From Leisingera sp. JC1 (lineage in GTDB: Bacteria > Pseudomonadota > Alphaproteobacteria > Rhodobacterales > Rhodobacteraceae), in contig NZ_LYUZ01000081.1 in NCBI RefSeq assembly GCF_001679925.1, forward strand, positions 241,100 to 305,099: a stretch of 64,000 nucleotides of DNA, in the 5' to 3' direction. Each line of letters begins with the position of its first letter. Position 1 is the stretch's first letter. The position numbers and the translations under genes were made by a program. The notes below the pieces were generated by a model that saw only the letters and a list, made by a program, of their open reading frames with translations, ran no database searches and had not been told where the DNA came from. This document shows, piece by piece, positions 6,902-11,875 of this stretch.

Positions 6902-7675
6902 TTACAGCGCGGTCCAGCCGCCATCGACGCTGAGGGTAGTACCGGTGATCTGCGCCGCTGCGTCCGAACACAGGAACACTGCGGTGCCTCCCAACTGCTC
7001 CACCGTGGCGAACTCTCGGCTTGGCTGGCGTTCCAGCATCACCTTCTTGATCACCTCTTCCCGGCCCATGCCGTATTTCTCCATGGTGTCGGGGATCTGC
7101 GCCTCCACCAGCGGCGTCAGCACATAACCGGGGCAGATTGCATTGCAGGTGATCGGCTCCTCGGCGGTTTCCAGTGCCACCGTTTTGGTCATGCCCACCA
7201 CCCCGTGCTTGGCAGCCACATAGGCGGCTTTGTAGGGCGACGCGGTCAACCCGTGCGCTGACGCAATGTTTACGATCCGGCCCCAGCCTGCGGCACGCAT
7301 CCTGGGCAGTGCTGCCGCCATGGTGTGGAAGTTGGAGTTCATGTTGATGGCGATGATCGCATCCCATTTTTCCTGCGGAAACTCGTCGATCGGCGACACA
7401 TGCTGGATGCCCGCGTTGTTCACCAGGATATCGCAGGCCCCGGCCTTCTCGATCAGCGCGCGGCAGTCGGCGCCCTTGGACATATCGGCCTGGACGTATT
7501 GGGCCTTGACGCTGAACTCACGGGCGAGTTCTGCTGCCAGCGCGTGATCCTCTTCCCGGTCGGTAAAGGAGTTCAGCACAACATTGGCCCCTGCCCGTGC
7601 CAACTCGCGGGCCACCCCCAGGCCGATGCCTGAATTCGATCCGGTGATTACGGCAGTCTTTCCTTGCAAGGTCAT
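6902..7675 (-). CDS. bdhA: 3-hydroxybutyrate dehydrogenase
   Basis: A 257-residue short-chain dehydrogenase that interconverts 3-hydroxybutyrate and acetoacetate with NAD, in ketone-body or polyhydroxybutyrate turnover. It has the cofactor motif GSNSGIG (residues 12-18), NNAGIQHVSPI (86-96), catalytic Ser139, Tyr152 and Lys156 in the Y-x3-K arrangement, and the family-typical ICPGYVLTPLVE and QITGTTLSVDGGW end. AQYVQADMSKG and KHGVVGMTKTVALET are also characteristic of bacterial BdhA. It is transcribed away from the 319-bp region that holds the small-RNA candidate. Chirality, D- over L-, is assumed from the family. Confidence 0.9.
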   Translation of the reverse strand: MTLQGKTAVITGSNSGIGLGVARELARAGANVVLNSFTDREEDHALAAELAREFSVKAQYVQADMSKGADCRALIEKAGACDILVNNAGIQHVSPIDEFPQEKWDAIIAINMNSNFHTMAAALPRMRAAGWGRIVNIASAHGLTASPYKAAYVAAKHGVVGMTKTVALETAEEPITCNAICPGYVLTPLVEAQIPDTMEKYGMGREEVIKKVMLERQPSREFATVEQLGGTAVFLCSDAAAQITGTTLSVDGGWTAL

Positions 7676-7811
7676 CGCTCCCTACCTCATGGCTGATTGA
7701 AACTGCCGCCACTGTGCCATGCTGCAGATGCAAAAGAAACGCGTAAGACTACGGATGCCGCGGAGGTCATTCCTGCCAATTTCACCGCTTGCTAAAAGAG
7801 AAAACGGGCAG

Positions 7812-7839
7812 AAAAAAACGCCCGCACAAGGCGGGCGTT
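7812..7839 (-). terminator. Intrinsic terminator of the small RNA candidate
   Basis: Nine-pair stem AACGCCCGC/GCGGGCGTT with a 5-base loop, followed on the minus strand by seven consecutive T residues. Orientation is unambiguous because the plus strand has no T-run after it. Confidence 0.8.
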
Positions 7840-7886
7840 AGTTATTGAGGCAGGTTTCATACAGGCAAGAAACCTATCGAGCAGTG
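7812..7886 (-). ncRNA. Candidate small RNA, about 75 nt
   Basis: Predicted transcript starting near 7886, seven or so bases after a strong -10 box, and ending in the T-run at 7812-7818. It would fold into hairpin 1 (stem 7852-7858 with 7869-7875, seven pairs, 10-base loop TTGCCTGTAT as transcribed) and a terminator hairpin (7817-7825 with 7831-7839, nine pairs, 5-base loop), joined by a single-stranded linker CTGCCTCAATAACT-like segment. No protein gene is placed on this strand to explain the promoter and terminator. I do not recognise an Rfam family. An Hfq-dependent antisense regulator is possible since hfq is present, but that is speculation. Confidence 0.6.
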
Positions 7887-7891
7887 ATCCC

Positions 7892-7920
7892 TTTATAAGC
7901 AATTTCCGGCTTTCGTCCAA
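7892..7920 (-). promoter_or_regulatory. Sigma70-type promoter of the small RNA candidate
   Basis: On the minus strand TTGGAC (7920-7915) and TATAAA (7897-7892) are separated by exactly 17 bases, a near-consensus housekeeping promoter, rare in this GC-rich sequence. Confidence 0.7.
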
Positions 7921-7940
7921 GCTAAAAGTTTGAAAAGACG

Positions 7941-7961
7941 AAAAAGCGCACGTAGCGTGCG
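7941..7961 (-). terminator. Second minus-strand terminator-like hairpin
   Basis: CGCACG/CGTGCG with a 3-base loop, followed on the minus strand by C and five T residues. It lies just upstream of the small-RNA promoter and could insulate it from antisense transcription of the ABC gene start. No transcript feeding it is evident. Confidence 0.4.
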
Positions 7962-7994
7962 GAGGCAAGAAAATAAGGGCAGAGCGGGATTGTT

Positions 7995-9818
7995 GTGAAT
8001 CAGCGAAAAGAAAATTTCCGGACTCTTCGCGCGGCACTGGCTGGAATCACCCTGGCAATTACCGCGAATTATGCGCAGGCAGAATCGGCCCATGGCATAG
8101 CTATGTACGGCGACCCCGCGCTGCCACCGGATTTTGTGTCTTTACCCTATGCGAACCCGGATGCACTGAAGGGCGGCAAGGTTGTGTTCGGCAATACCGG
8201 AGGTTTTGACAGCCTCAATCCGTTCACCCTTAAGGGGACCACTCCATGGCAGCTGAGGTTCTGGGGATACGAGAGTCTGATGGGCCGGTCGTGGGACGAG
8301 CCGTTCACCCTTTACGGTCTTCTGGCCGAATCGATTGAGGTGCCTGAGGACCGCTCCTGGGTCGAATTCACCCTGCGCGAGGAAGCCCGATTCTCTGACG
8401 GCAGCCCGGTCACTGTCGATGATGTGATCTGGTCCTACGAGACCTTGGGCACCAAGGGCCATCCGCGCTACCGCGGTTTCTGGACCAAGGTGGAAGCCAT
8501 CGAACAGACCGGGCCTCGCAGCCTGCGGCTGACATTCAACGTAGAGGACCGCGAGCTTGCACTGATCGCCGGCCTGCGCCCGATCCTGCAGAAGGCGCAG
8601 TGGGAGGGACTGGAGTTCGGCACGGATGAAGTTAAGGGCGCGCCTGTTGGCACTGGCGCCTATGTCGTCAGTGCCTATGAGCCCGGCCGCTTTGTCATCC
8701 TCACCCGCAACCCGGACTATTGGGCCAAGGATCTGCCCCTGCGCCGCGGCACGGGGAACTTTGACGAGCTTCGCATCGACTTCTTTGGTGACGAGACTGT
8801 TCTGTTCGAGGCCTTCAAGGCGGGCGAGTTGAGCGCATTGCGCGAGTTCAACGCCGATAAATGGGACAGTGTTTACAGCTTCCCGGCAATCACCCGCGGC
8901 GATGTGGTCAAAAGCGAGATCCCGCATCAGCGGCCCTCCGGCATGACCGGGCTGGTAATGAACACCCGCCGCGCGCCGCTGGATGACTGGCGCGTGCGCG
9001 AGGCGCTGCTGCTGGCCTTCAACTTCGAGTACATCAACGGCACCGTGACCGGCGGCACCCAGCAGCGCATCACCTCCTATTTCTCCGGCTCCGAACTGGG
9101 CATGCGGCCCGGCCCGGCAGAGGGCAAGGTACGCGCGTTGCTGGAGCCTTTTGCGGAAGAGCTGCTGCCCGGCACGCTGGAGGGCTATACCCTGCCCCAG
9201 GGTGACGGCAGCAAGCGCAACCGCAGCAACCTGCGCAAGGCAATGAAACTGCTGGATGAGGCCGGCTGGACCGTCACTGATGGCGTGCTGCGCAATGCGG
9301 CGGGCACCGCGCTGGAGCTCAGTGTGCTGATCCGCCAGGGCGATGGCGAAATGAAGACGGTCACAGAAATCTATGCCCGCGCACTGGAGCGGCTGGGAAT
9401 CACGCTGACGGCCGAAACAGTAGACAATGCACAGTACGCCGAACGGGAAAACGCCTATGACTTCGACCTCACCCGGTTCCGCCGGGAACTGTCGCTGAGC
9501 CCCGGCAACGAGCAGCGCTATTACTGGGGCAGCGACGGTGTGGATCAGCCCGGCAGCCGCAACCTGATGGGCATGGACAGCCCGGCGGCGGAGGCCTTGA
9601 TCGACGCCATGCTGACCGCAACCGAGCCTGAGGATTTCACCGCTGCGGTGCGGGCGCTGGACCGGGTTCTGACCGCCGGGCGCTATGTCATCCCGTTCTG
9701 GAGCTTTGACACCGGCCGTATCGCACACATCAAGGAAATGCGGTTCCCGGACAGGCTGCCGATTTATGGCGACCGGACAGAGTTCATGCCGGACGTCTGG
9801 TGGTATCAGGCGGACTGA
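7995..9818 (+). CDS. ABC transporter substrate-binding protein, family 5 (YejA-like)
   Basis: A 607-residue periplasmic binding protein of the peptide/nickel family (SBP_bac_5). The N-terminus has a signal peptide cleaved after YAQA. It then has GIAMYGDPALPPDF and LPYANPDALKGGKVVFG, the opening typical of the long YejA-like subgroup, LNPFTLKG, WVEFTLREEARFSDGSPVTVDDVIWSYE, and GTGAYVVSAYEPGRFV. It probably delivers oligopeptides or a related compound to an ABC permease; the permease and ATPase genes are not adjacent, so it is an orphan here. The reading frame opens at GTG 7995 with only a weak ribosome site. The next methionine would delete the signal peptide, so GTG is preferred. Confidence 0.87.
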   Translation: MNQRKENFRTLRAALAGITLAITANYAQAESAHGIAMYGDPALPPDFVSLPYANPDALKGGKVVFGNTGGFDSLNPFTLKGTTPWQLRFWGYESLMGRSWDEPFTLYGLLAESIEVPEDRSWVEFTLREEARFSDGSPVTVDDVIWSYETLGTKGHPRYRGFWTKVEAIEQTGPRSLRLTFNVEDRELALIAGLRPILQKAQWEGLEFGTDEVKGAPVGTGAYVVSAYEPGRFVILTRNPDYWAKDLPLRRGTGNFDELRIDFFGDETVLFEAFKAGELSALREFNADKWDSVYSFPAITRGDVVKSEIPHQRPSGMTGLVMNTRRAPLDDWRVREALLLAFNFEYINGTVTGGTQQRITSYFSGSELGMRPGPAEGKVRALLEPFAEELLPGTLEGYTLPQGDGSKRNRSNLRKAMKLLDEAGWTVTDGVLRNAAGTALELSVLIRQGDGEMKTVTEIYARALERLGITLTAETVDNAQYAERENAYDFDLTRFRRELSLSPGNEQRYYWGSDGVDQPGSRNLMGMDSPAAEALIDAMLTATEPEDFTAAVRALDRVLTAGRYVIPFWSFDTGRIAHIKEMRFPDRLPIYGDRTEFMPDVWWYQAD

Positions 9819-9855: not shown

Positions 9856-9884
9856 TTGACAGCGGCTACTTATTTCCGTATTTC
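9856..9884 (+). promoter_or_regulatory. Promoter of the arsenic operon
   Basis: TTGACA (9856-9861), a 17-base spacer and TATTTC (9879-9884). The predicted start site, about seven bases on, coincides with the ATG at 9892, implying a leaderless messenger. Confidence 0.65.
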
Positions 9885-9900
9885 GCGAAATATGGAAATA
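9871..9900 (+). promoter_or_regulatory. 30-bp palindrome, probable ArsR operator
   Basis: TATTTCCGTATTTCG (9871-9885) is followed directly by its reverse complement with one mismatch (9886-9900). It covers the -10 box, the predicted start site and the ATG. ArsR-family repressors bind such inverted repeats over their own promoters, so autoregulation by the ArsR domain encoded immediately after is likely. The nested ATTTCG/CGAAAT core may be the minimal site. Confidence 0.75.
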
Positions 9901-10725
9901 GAGCTTTCTGATAAACTCGCCGCTCTGGCGCACCCGAAGCGGCTGGCGCTGTTCCGGCTGCTGATGCGCCGATACCCGGACGGCGTGCCGGCGGGTGAAA
10001 TCGCGCAGGCGCTGGAGTTCAAGGCAAACACTGCCTCAGCTTACCTGTCTGCCCTAAAGCAGGCCGGCCTCATCACCCAGCAGCGCACCGGCACCTCGCT
10101 GATGTATTCCGCCGACCTGCCGGGCCTGCGCGGCATGTTCGACGGCCTTTTGACCGGCTGCTGCCGGAACCGGCCCGATATCTGTACCCCTGTCACCAGT
10201 GAAGTGGAAACCATGCCGACAATCGAACGCCCGTTTAATGTCCTGTTTATCTGTACTGGCAACTCTGCCCGCTCCCTGCTGGCCGAGGCCATTCTGAACA
10301 ACGAAGGCGGCGGCAGGTTCCGCGCCTTTTCTGCCGGAACCCGCCCCTCGCCAGGGCCACGCCCTGAGGTGACAGCTCTTCTGAAGGCCAAGGAGATTGA
10401 CACCAGCAGTCTGCGATCGAAGGACCTGGATGAATTTTCTGCGCCGGATGCGCCGCAGATGGATTTCATCTTCACCGTCTGCGACCACGCGGCAAACGAG
10501 GAATGCCCGGCCTGGCCCGGCCAGCCGATGAGCGCCCATTGGGGCCTGGCCGATCCGGTCAAGACCGAGGGCACCGATGCCGAACGCCGCCTCGCCTTCC
10601 AGCAGGCCTATGGGCTGCTCAGAAACAGGATCAGAGCCTTTGCGGCGCTGCCCTTTGAAACACTCGACCGCATGTCGCTTCAGCATCAGGTTGACGATAT
10701 CGGCCGCCTGAACTCCCCCGACTGA
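9892..10725 (+). CDS. ArsR regulator fused to low-molecular-weight phosphatase/arsenate reductase
   Basis: A 277-residue two-domain protein. Residues 1-100 are an ArsR-type winged helix (KLAALAHPKRLALFRLL, then TASAYLSALKQAGLITQ as recognition helix) ending in Cys90, Cys91 and Cys98, a CC-x6-C cluster like the As(III) sites of ferrooxidans-type ArsR proteins. Residues about 113-277 are a low-molecular-weight tyrosine-phosphatase/ArsC fold with the P-loop CTGNSARS (Cys121, Arg127). The protein may thus sense arsenite and reduce arsenate. ATG 9892 is preferred over upstream TTG 9856, which falls in the -35 box. First gene of a three-gene operon with arsC and an aquaglyceroporin. Whether the phosphatase domain is active on arsenate is inferred. 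Confidence 0.88.
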   Translation: MEIELSDKLAALAHPKRLALFRLLMRRYPDGVPAGEIAQALEFKANTASAYLSALKQAGLITQQRTGTSLMYSADLPGLRGMFDGLLTGCCRNRPDICTPVTSEVETMPTIERPFNVLFICTGNSARSLLAEAILNNEGGGRFRAFSAGTRPSPGPRPEVTALLKAKEIDTSSLRSKDLDEFSAPDAPQMDFIFTVCDHAANEECPAWPGQPMSAHWGLADPVKTEGTDAERRLAFQQAYGLLRNRIRAFAALPFETLDRMSLQHQVDDIGRLNSPD

Positions 10726-10745
10726 AAAAATCACGGACACAACAC

Positions 10746-11222
10746 ATGAACATTCTGGTCCTTTGCACCGGCAATTCCGCGCGCTCCATCCTGCTGGAGT
10801 CGATCTTCAACACGCTGGGCGCAGGCCGCATCCGCGCCTATTCGGCGGGTTCCAACCCCACCGGCAAGGTGCATCCCCAGTCGCTGGTGCTGCTGGGGGA
10901 ATTGGGCCATGACACCGCCGGCGCCCGTTCCAAGCGCTGGGACGAATTTGCAGGCGCAGAAGCGCCGGAGATGGATATGGTCATCACCGTCTGTGCCTCT
11001 GCCGCAGGCGAGACCTGCCCGGTCTGGCCCGGCGCGCCGGTGCGTGCCCATTGGGGGGTCGAGGACCCGGCGGCGGCAGATCAGCCGGAGTGGGACAAGG
11101 CCTTCCGCACCGCCTATATCACGCTGGAAAAGCGCGCCAAGGCGCTGCTTGAGCTGCCGATTGAAACCATGTCCTCCACCGAGCTCTCCCAGCAGCTAAA
11201 GCGGATCGGAGAGATCGCATGA
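10746..11222 (+). CDS. arsC: Arsenate reductase, low-molecular-weight phosphatase family
   Basis: A 158-residue single-domain enzyme with the P-loop CTGNSARS at residues 7-14 (Cys7, Arg13), SAGSNPTGKVHP, DEFAGAEAPEMDMVITVC and WPGAPVRAHWGVEDP. This is the ArsC/ACR2-like branch in which the product arsenite leaves by a separate channel. It is similar to the second domain of the preceding fusion, so the operon encodes two related reductases. The ATG sits 20 bases after the fusion stop, and the stop overlaps the aquaporin gene start by four bases. The reducing partner, thioredoxin or glutaredoxin, cannot be read from the sequence. Confidence 0.9.
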   Translation: MNILVLCTGNSARSILLESIFNTLGAGRIRAYSAGSNPTGKVHPQSLVLLGELGHDTAGARSKRWDEFAGAEAPEMDMVITVCASAAGETCPVWPGAPVRAHWGVEDPAAADQPEWDKAFRTAYITLEKRAKALLELPIETMSSTELSQQLKRIGEIA

Positions 11223-11875
11223 CCGGACAGAAACTGCTGGCCGAAGGGCTGGGCACCGCCATGCTGCTGGTCGGCGTAGTCGGTTCCGGAATCATGGCCG
11301 AGACCCTGGCGGACGGCAACGTGGCCCTGGCGCTTCTGGCCAATGCGATTGCCACGGGCTGCATGCTATATGCCATCATCACCACGCTGGGACCCATTTC
11401 CGGCGCCCATTTCAACCCGGCGGTGACGCTGGCATTTGCCCTGCGCGGCGAGCATTCCTGGAGCGCTGTCGCCCCTTATGTCCTAGTGCAGATCGGCGGC
11501 GGCATCCTCGGCGTATGGGCCTGCCATGTGATGTTCGACCTTGCAATCCTGCAAAGCTCGGCCACCATGCACCGCACCGGCACCGCGCAGTGGTTCTCCG
11601 AGATCCTGGCCACATTCGGCCTCTTGTTCGTGATCTTCGGCGGCTTGCGCTCACGCCCCGAAGCGGTGCCTGCACTGGTCGGCCTCTATATCACAGGCGC
11701 CTATTGGTTCACCTCCTCGACCAGCTTTGCCAACCCCGCTGTCACCATAGCGCGCGGCTTCAGCGACACCTTTGCGGGCATCTATCCGGGTCACATCCCG
11801 ATGTTCATCCTGATGCAGCTCGCCGCAGTTGGCATTGGCCACCTGATGCTGCCAAGGCTGTTTGCACCGCGCTGA
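11219..11875 (+). CDS. Aquaglyceroporin of the MIP family (AqpS-like arsenite channel)
   Basis: A 218-residue membrane channel with about six helices and the two half-helix motifs of the MIP family: FNPAVT after GPISGAH, and ANPAVTIAR after TSSTSF. In Sinorhizobium meliloti the ars operon encodes AqpS, which lets arsenite made by ArsC flow out of the cell. The same gene order logic holds here, with no ArsB or Acr3 pump in sight. The gene overlaps arsC by four bases (ATGA). A hairpin follows the stop codon. Role in arsenite export is by analogy; water or other small solutes could also pass. Confidence 0.88.
   Translation: MTGQKLLAEGLGTAMLLVGVVGSGIMAETLADGNVALALLANAIATGCMLYAIITTLGPISGAHFNPAVTLAFALRGEHSWSAVAPYVLVQIGGGILGVWACHVMFDLAILQSSATMHRTGTAQWFSEILATFGLLFVIFGGLRSRPEAVPALVGLYITGAYWFTSSTSFANPAVTIARGFSDTFAGIYPGHIPMFILMQLAAVGIGHLMLPRLFAPR

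Follow-up and report, generated by a model that had tools for sequence, protein, structure and literature searches.

Between the 3-hydroxybutyrate dehydrogenase gene bdhA (6902-7675, minus strand; TIGR01963, E 7.6e-109) and a divergently oriented gene for a family 5 extracellular solute-binding protein (7995-9818, plus strand; PF00496, E 3.2e-67), the window analyzed here, a stretch of DNA 64,000 nucleotides in length, carries a compact series of transcription signals. A sequence-only reading had proposed an unannotated small RNA in this gap between bdhA and a peptide-binding protein gene, and the domain matches of both neighbors agree with that placement. The locus thus raises the question of whether these signals delimit a gene in its own right and, if so, what function the encoded RNA may serve.

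On the minus strand, the signals follow the order TTGGAC, a 17-nt spacer, TATAAA, a first hairpin, a linker, a terminator stem and seven T. The -35 hexamer TTGGAC (7915-7920) and the -10 hexamer TATAAA (7892-7897) make up the anticipated promoter at 7920-7892, with a conserved block AACTTTTAGCTTGG at 7917-7930 of the same strand. The first stem-loop (7851-7876, minus strand) is formed by the stem UAGGUUUC/GAAACCUG and the loop UUGCCUGUAU; the heptamer CUGCCUC (7847-7853, minus strand; RNA nucleotides 33-39) we put forward as a candidate seed. The intrinsic terminator detected by a terminator scan (7812-7839, minus strand) combines a G+C-rich stem of nine pairs at 7839-7817 with seven T at 7818-7812, and the two hairpins, the linker between them and the T7 terminator foreseen by the earlier reading are all in place.

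A simple promoter scan of the window did not list the TTGGAC-17-TATAAA promoter, because the scan requires a final T in the second hexamer. Conservation supports this putative promoter instead. Among 166 distinct upstream regions, CTTGGA is retained at five or six of six positions in 152 and TATAAA in 144, the exact 14-mer AACTTTTAGCTTGG occurs in 91, and a common layout, with TATAAA separated by 6 nt from a start at ACTG and 17 nt between hexamers, is shared by 143. Across loci, the letters 5' of ACTGCTC are variable and those 3' of it nearly constant, and we therefore place the transcription start most likely at A7885. Counted from this position to the end of the T run, the predicted RNA (7812-7885, minus strand) measures 74 nt; the small RNA originally proposed is upheld, at 74 nt as against the 75 nt first given.

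Folding is consistent with a structured transcript, since a 76-nt segment reaches -25.0 kcal/mol versus -14.0 (sd 2.5) for shuffled sequences (z -4.4; 0/200 shuffles as good), and a covariance model that includes the window's own sequence and 81 others matches 7885-7814 at 98.4 bits. An 81-aa frame with a GTG start (7792-8037) crosses the element on the same strand and has no match in NCBIfam. Searching Rfam 15 at gathering thresholds returned no matches in the window, and the element, equipped with its own conserved promoter and terminator, can be regarded as a hitherto unannotated small RNA.

The element is distributed throughout the Rhodobacteraceae. A sequence search of 394 genomes of the family, almost every one from a separate genus, matched it in 384, and in 345 of 347 among good assemblies. 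When 20 genomes were picked among those with the weakest or missing matches, a laxer cut recovered the element in 17 and left three without a match. In genome G433 the small RNA is split over two contig ends (C129 and C72), and the assembly seems to break inside it. Using 311 bases of the gap as query against 61 genomes, matches were obtained in 37/37 family genomes and in 0/24 genomes outside the family. The exact 33-mer of the core could be traced to no fewer than 117 contigs from named genomes, those listed including Leisingera, Ruegeria, Paracoccus, Sulfitobacter, Yoonia, Rhodovulum, Thioclava and others, and it is on the basis of these named contigs that the family is taken to be the Rhodobacteraceae. 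Within the genus of genome G067, which is probably Paracoccus since it gave the best hit to a gene of Paracoccus aerius (73% identity), 124 of 125 genomes carry the RNA. The covariance model, built from 82 sequences, was also run with stricter filters on 289 genomes of the class, for 263 of which family membership is unstated, and yielded six matches, four of them strong and all four in the family. Two weak matches considered as possible relatives outside the family, L208 (G+C-rich and without a T run) and L209 (a terminator resemblance), were judged false from their alignments.

Conservation is concentrated in the 5' part of the RNA. Among the first 203 loci, 193 contain the core within five mismatches of 33, and 188 of these 193 have the 33-mer exactly; the ten loci without the core comprise nine weak partial matches, two of which are the G433 halves, and locus L189. 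More broadly, a 5' core of 40 nt encompassing the 5' tail, the stem-loop and the start of the linker is nearly invariant, and CUGCCUC is identical in all 82 sequences of the alignment. We know of few bacterial small RNAs in which 40 letters in a row are so nearly constant over such a range of genera. The sequence-only reading had made its proposal hinge on conservation of the stems in relatives, and both are conserved. Over the 82 aligned RNAs, 99.7% of cells preserve the first stem, six of whose eight pairs never vary, leaving too little variation for a covariation test. The terminator changes while remaining paired: all seven inner pairs have changed on both sides and are formed in 99.3% of cells, the figure for the two outer A-U pairs being 82.8%, and none of 500 shuffles reaches the observed covariation on any of five measures. 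In 12 loci from distant genera (L182-L194 except L189), the upstream region no longer closely resembles the promoter, and of their cores nine are free of mismatches, two have a single mismatch and one has three. Retention of the core next to a diverged upstream region indicates that selection seems to act on the RNA itself, rather than on its DNA context. Taken together, we regard it as practically certain that this is a real small RNA gene.

The architecture of the gene also bears on its mode of action. Intergenic location, an own promoter and an intrinsic terminator, the sequence features of Hfq-type trans-acting small RNAs, are all found here, and Hfq dependence, suggested by the earlier reading, fits the plan of the RNA. 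In the model we favor, this is a free-standing gene of the Rhodobacteraceae for a trans-acting, base-pairing RNA, which would be made in the cell and bound by Hfq and whose linker heptamer CUGCCUC would pair with the ribosome-binding site GAGGCAG of the ccrM mRNA. Such pairing would hinder production of CcrM, the GANTC DNA methyltransferase, at the level of translation, so that whatever input governs the promoter of the RNA would also bear on chromosome methylation and the cell cycle. Additional targets are probably addressed by the loop UUGCCUGUAU and the 5' tail, and would account for the invariance. That the RNA is a trans-acting base-pairing regulator we consider highly probable.

The putative target was reached by searching for complements of the loop and the linker before ATG codons in three genomes and examining 20 chosen stretches. 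Credible starts preceded by a complement belong to ccrM and a PotF-like binding protein gene (genome G000), parB (G172) and loci L281 and L286. Selection of ccrM was made among genes with TGAGGCAG before their ATG, and two families, ccrM and parB, were followed up, one of which failed; since ccrM was chosen by its motif, the independent evidence for it consists of motif conservation and restriction to the family. The identity of the gene product is clear from its match to the CcrMI structure 6pbd (E 2.6e-161), with which its domains agree. All 61 family genomes surveyed match CcrM, distantly only in G034, G073 and G103 and through a C-terminal fragment in G066, leaving 57 genera for the count; of 40 genomes outside the family, 24 contain CcrM at the chosen cut.

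CUGCCUC is the exact complement of GAGGCAG found at the ccrM start, although GAGG, as a usual ribosome-binding sequence, counts against a specific match. This heptamer is present there in 39/57 family genera versus 0/24 outside genomes, and the shorter AGGCA in 45/57 versus 2/24, so that a conserved segment of the RNA is predicted to be complementary to the ccrM ribosome-binding site in 39 of 57 genera. Within a narrower stretch near the ccrM start, GAGGCAG ranks first among all 7-mers (38/57). The commonest 7-mers at control starts reach 10% for bdhA, 12% for DUF502 and 17% for parB, and those at the solute-binding gene and a patatin gene reach 41%, with unrelated words. GAGGCAG is absent from the ccrM start in 18 of the 57 genera, G067 (the probable Paracoccus) included. 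In many genera, the ribosome-binding site of ccrM seems to be immediately preceded by a short hairpin with differing stem letters (e.g. gagcgc...gcgcc), as seen by eye at L290 and other ccrM loci.

Duplex energies (kcal/mol) reproduce the family restriction. The 15-nt linker duplex at family ccrM starts lies at -13.4 versus -8.9 (sd 2.4) for shuffles, with 74% versus 6% at or below -13, whereas outside the family it amounts to -8.6 versus -8.1. In the window's own genome, linker and ccrM can form 13 pairs around one bulged base at -18.5 kcal/mol. In the other linker sets, which stay near their shuffles, 2-12% of duplexes reach -13 or lower, the exception being parB with 23%, where shuffles, as for the loop at bdhA, give 6-7%. 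The whole 46-nt core lies only slightly above shuffles at ccrM (-25.2 versus -23.3, sd 4.2; 30 loci). Whole-molecule cofolds at ccrM do not stand out (-7.1 versus -6.5, sd 2.9); 28 of 38 of these cofolds bring the linker into pairing with the ccrM site. As a target, parB was rejected with GAGGCAG in 1/30, though its linker duplexes are slightly above shuffles. Likewise discarded was a feedback through CcrM sites in the RNA promoter, as GANTC occurs in 56/166 upstream regions versus 29% of shuffles and is hardly enriched. On this evidence we lean towards ccrM as a direct target, and judge the complete proposal, of a Hfq-held trans-acting RNA of the Rhodobacteraceae that blocks ccrM translation among other targets, to be somewhat favored as well.

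The main competing explanation retains a trans-acting RNA with other real targets, transporter mRNAs for instance, and treats the ccrM match as a coincidence of a conserved ribosome-binding site. Near-invariance over 40 nt demands more than one 7-nt seed, and genome G034, which has no ccrM ortholog (best E 1.3e-9), keeps the core intact, from which it follows that ccrM is not the sole target. The core has six mismatches in 40 in G073, the most altered core read, and three in G103, so that ccrM loss goes with core decay in at most two of the three genomes; three mismatches are also seen in G201, a genome outside the ccrM search. In G077, whose assembly is 74% complete, neither the RNA nor GAGGCAG at ccrM was found. 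In the window's own genome, motifs of the TGAGGCAG type also precede the credible starts of L272, which we take to be a solute-binding protein resembling PotF, L426, presumably a DnaJ-like protein, and L429. Among the matches listed and retrieved, TGAGGCAG-before-ATG sites are shared by G000 and G119 in at least two places, one of them at a credible start (L429, corresponding to L487 in G119). A backward-pattern control in G000 (8 versus 86 and 7 versus 63 matches), being unmatched for composition or coding, was set aside. A coincidence is nonetheless hard to reconcile with a ccrM motif that is the commonest 7-mer at its site, does not occur in the outside genomes examined and exactly complements the RNA, and we hold this explanation to be possible, though rather unlikely. 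A broader reading, in which one near-invariant RNA would control CcrM translation through most of the Rhodobacteraceae and address a second target set via its loop and 5' tail, appears to us evenly poised.

The genomic context of the RNA allows for a different mode of action, that of a cis-acting leader whose terminator would attenuate bdhA read-through or of an RNA that would regulate its divergent solute-binding neighbor. The RNA does share its strand with bdhA and lie upstream of it, the solute-binding gene is present in 106/117 loci, mostly some 180-230 nt away (several loci are cut short), and a 10-nt loop complement, AGGCAAGAAA, is present in the 5' region of the window's solute-binding gene (7963-7972). 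In start regions of 66 nt, duplexes are slightly stronger than those of shuffles for the loop at bdhA (-10.8 versus -9.5 shuffled; 23% versus 6% at or below -13) and, by about 1.1 kcal/mol each, for the three segments of the RNA at the solute-binding gene. The arrangement is not always maintained, however: bdhA was found in 91/117 loci (several cut short) and lies more than 1 kb away in seven of them (L062, L108, L110, L125, L135, L150 and L154), and in these, as in the 26/117 loci where it was not found (some cut short), the 33-mer is unchanged. Moreover, AGGCAAGAAA is not kept in other genera, as compared by eye, and over 215-nt regions the duplex energies of the RNA with both neighbors equal those of shuffles. 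The neighbors were accordingly rejected as targets in spite of the weak excess of some segments over 66 nt, and a cis-acting role is improbable.

The divergent gene has a probable promoter of its own, TTGAAA-17-TAGCGT (7930-7958, plus strand), predicted from sequence and from column conservation in 115 loci. The block AACTTTTAGCTTGG is situated between the two back-to-back promoters and overlaps the -35 hexamer of the small RNA; the two promoters could hardly be occupied together, and we infer either mutual exclusion or a shared regulator, for which AACTTTTAGCTTGG is perhaps the site. By eye, AACTTTTAGCTTGG shows near-dyad symmetry (region 7915-7958). The 5' region of the solute-binding gene (7973-7994) has conserved words of its own, such as GGATTGT in 44/107 loci. 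Beyond this gene, an apparent arsenic cluster occupies positions 9856-11875: a 289-aa protein joins a helix-turn-helix (HTH) domain to a low-molecular-weight phosphatase-type domain, which recurs in a second protein (158 aa), and a MIP protein resembling aquaporins (218 aa) is also encoded.

Two further explanations concern the nature of the element. A tiny coding RNA is suggested by ATGAAACCTGCCTCAATAACTTAA, which constitutes a seven-codon frame (MKPASIT) in many of the RNAs; it is very improbable, as the frame continues without that stop in the window and ends after MKPAS in others, and its ATG is not preceded by a ribosome-binding site. A chance juxtaposition of promoter and terminator without a gene is refuted by family-wide conservation and covariation, and its likelihood is negligible.

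Returning to a trans-acting RNA directed at ccrM, the proposal, if true, would add a riboregulatory layer to the epigenetic cell-cycle circuit of the alphaproteobacteria. Action on ccrM would connect chromosome methylation and the timing of the cell cycle with nutrient or stress signals, in a family that is prominent in the sea and in soil; named carriers of the RNA include marine roseobacters and Paracoccus. The base-pairing prediction is immediately testable.

The Rfam scans, which are also the sequence comparison bearing on the EcpR1 and AbcR families, gave no family at its threshold. At permissive thresholds, the best Rfam match is RyhB (RF00057; 26.3 bits versus a threshold of 55), likewise a small RNA ending in an intrinsic terminator, but the aligned parts are limited to promoter-side letters and the terminator. 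SorY (RF02651) was set aside at 12.5 bits versus a gathering score of 111. StsR of R. sphaeroides is, in the portions of the reports available to us (PMC11354728, PMC8307010), likewise an orphan trans-acting small RNA of the same bacterial family; its published probe (PMC11354728), compared by eye, is not contained in the RNA, and StsR was rejected on this ground. The trans-sRNA table for R. pomeroyi, as far as accessible, has no entry shorter than 101 nt (PMC4809877), and a full-text literature search for core fragments retrieved only papers unrelated by title. Among the search hits in the accessible literature, neither the present RNA nor a small RNA acting on ccrM was encountered.

Similar by description are two putative P. 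denitrificans small RNAs detected by RNA-seq and RT-PCR, intergenic 60 (80 nt) and intergenic 134 (84 nt), which in the text available are of comparable length and conserved across many Rhodobacteraceae, the latter sharing its gene context with a putative R. sphaeroides small RNA (PMC5107571). Matches outside the family are reported there for both, whereas none judged genuine was found here for the present RNA. Either may be the same RNA, in which case its expression would already be known, its role not.

Within the literature searched, and to the extent of the published text available, the closest known systems are EcpR1 and CcnA. EcpR1 of Sinorhizobium meliloti is a trans-acting RNA broadly conserved in one alphaproteobacterial order, the Rhizobiales, that pairs with mRNAs of cell-cycle regulators; it differs, by description rather than by sequence, in its targets, gcrA and dnaA, and in its dominant form of 101 nt (PMC4414408). 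CcnA of Caulobacter crescentus acts on ctrA and gcrA, and the main text of the corresponding paper does not contain the term 'ccrM mRNA' (PMC8959179). As described in the part of that source available, CcnA resembles the RNA proposed here in being a non-coding RNA that acts at the ribosome-binding sites of cell-cycle master regulators (PMC8959179).
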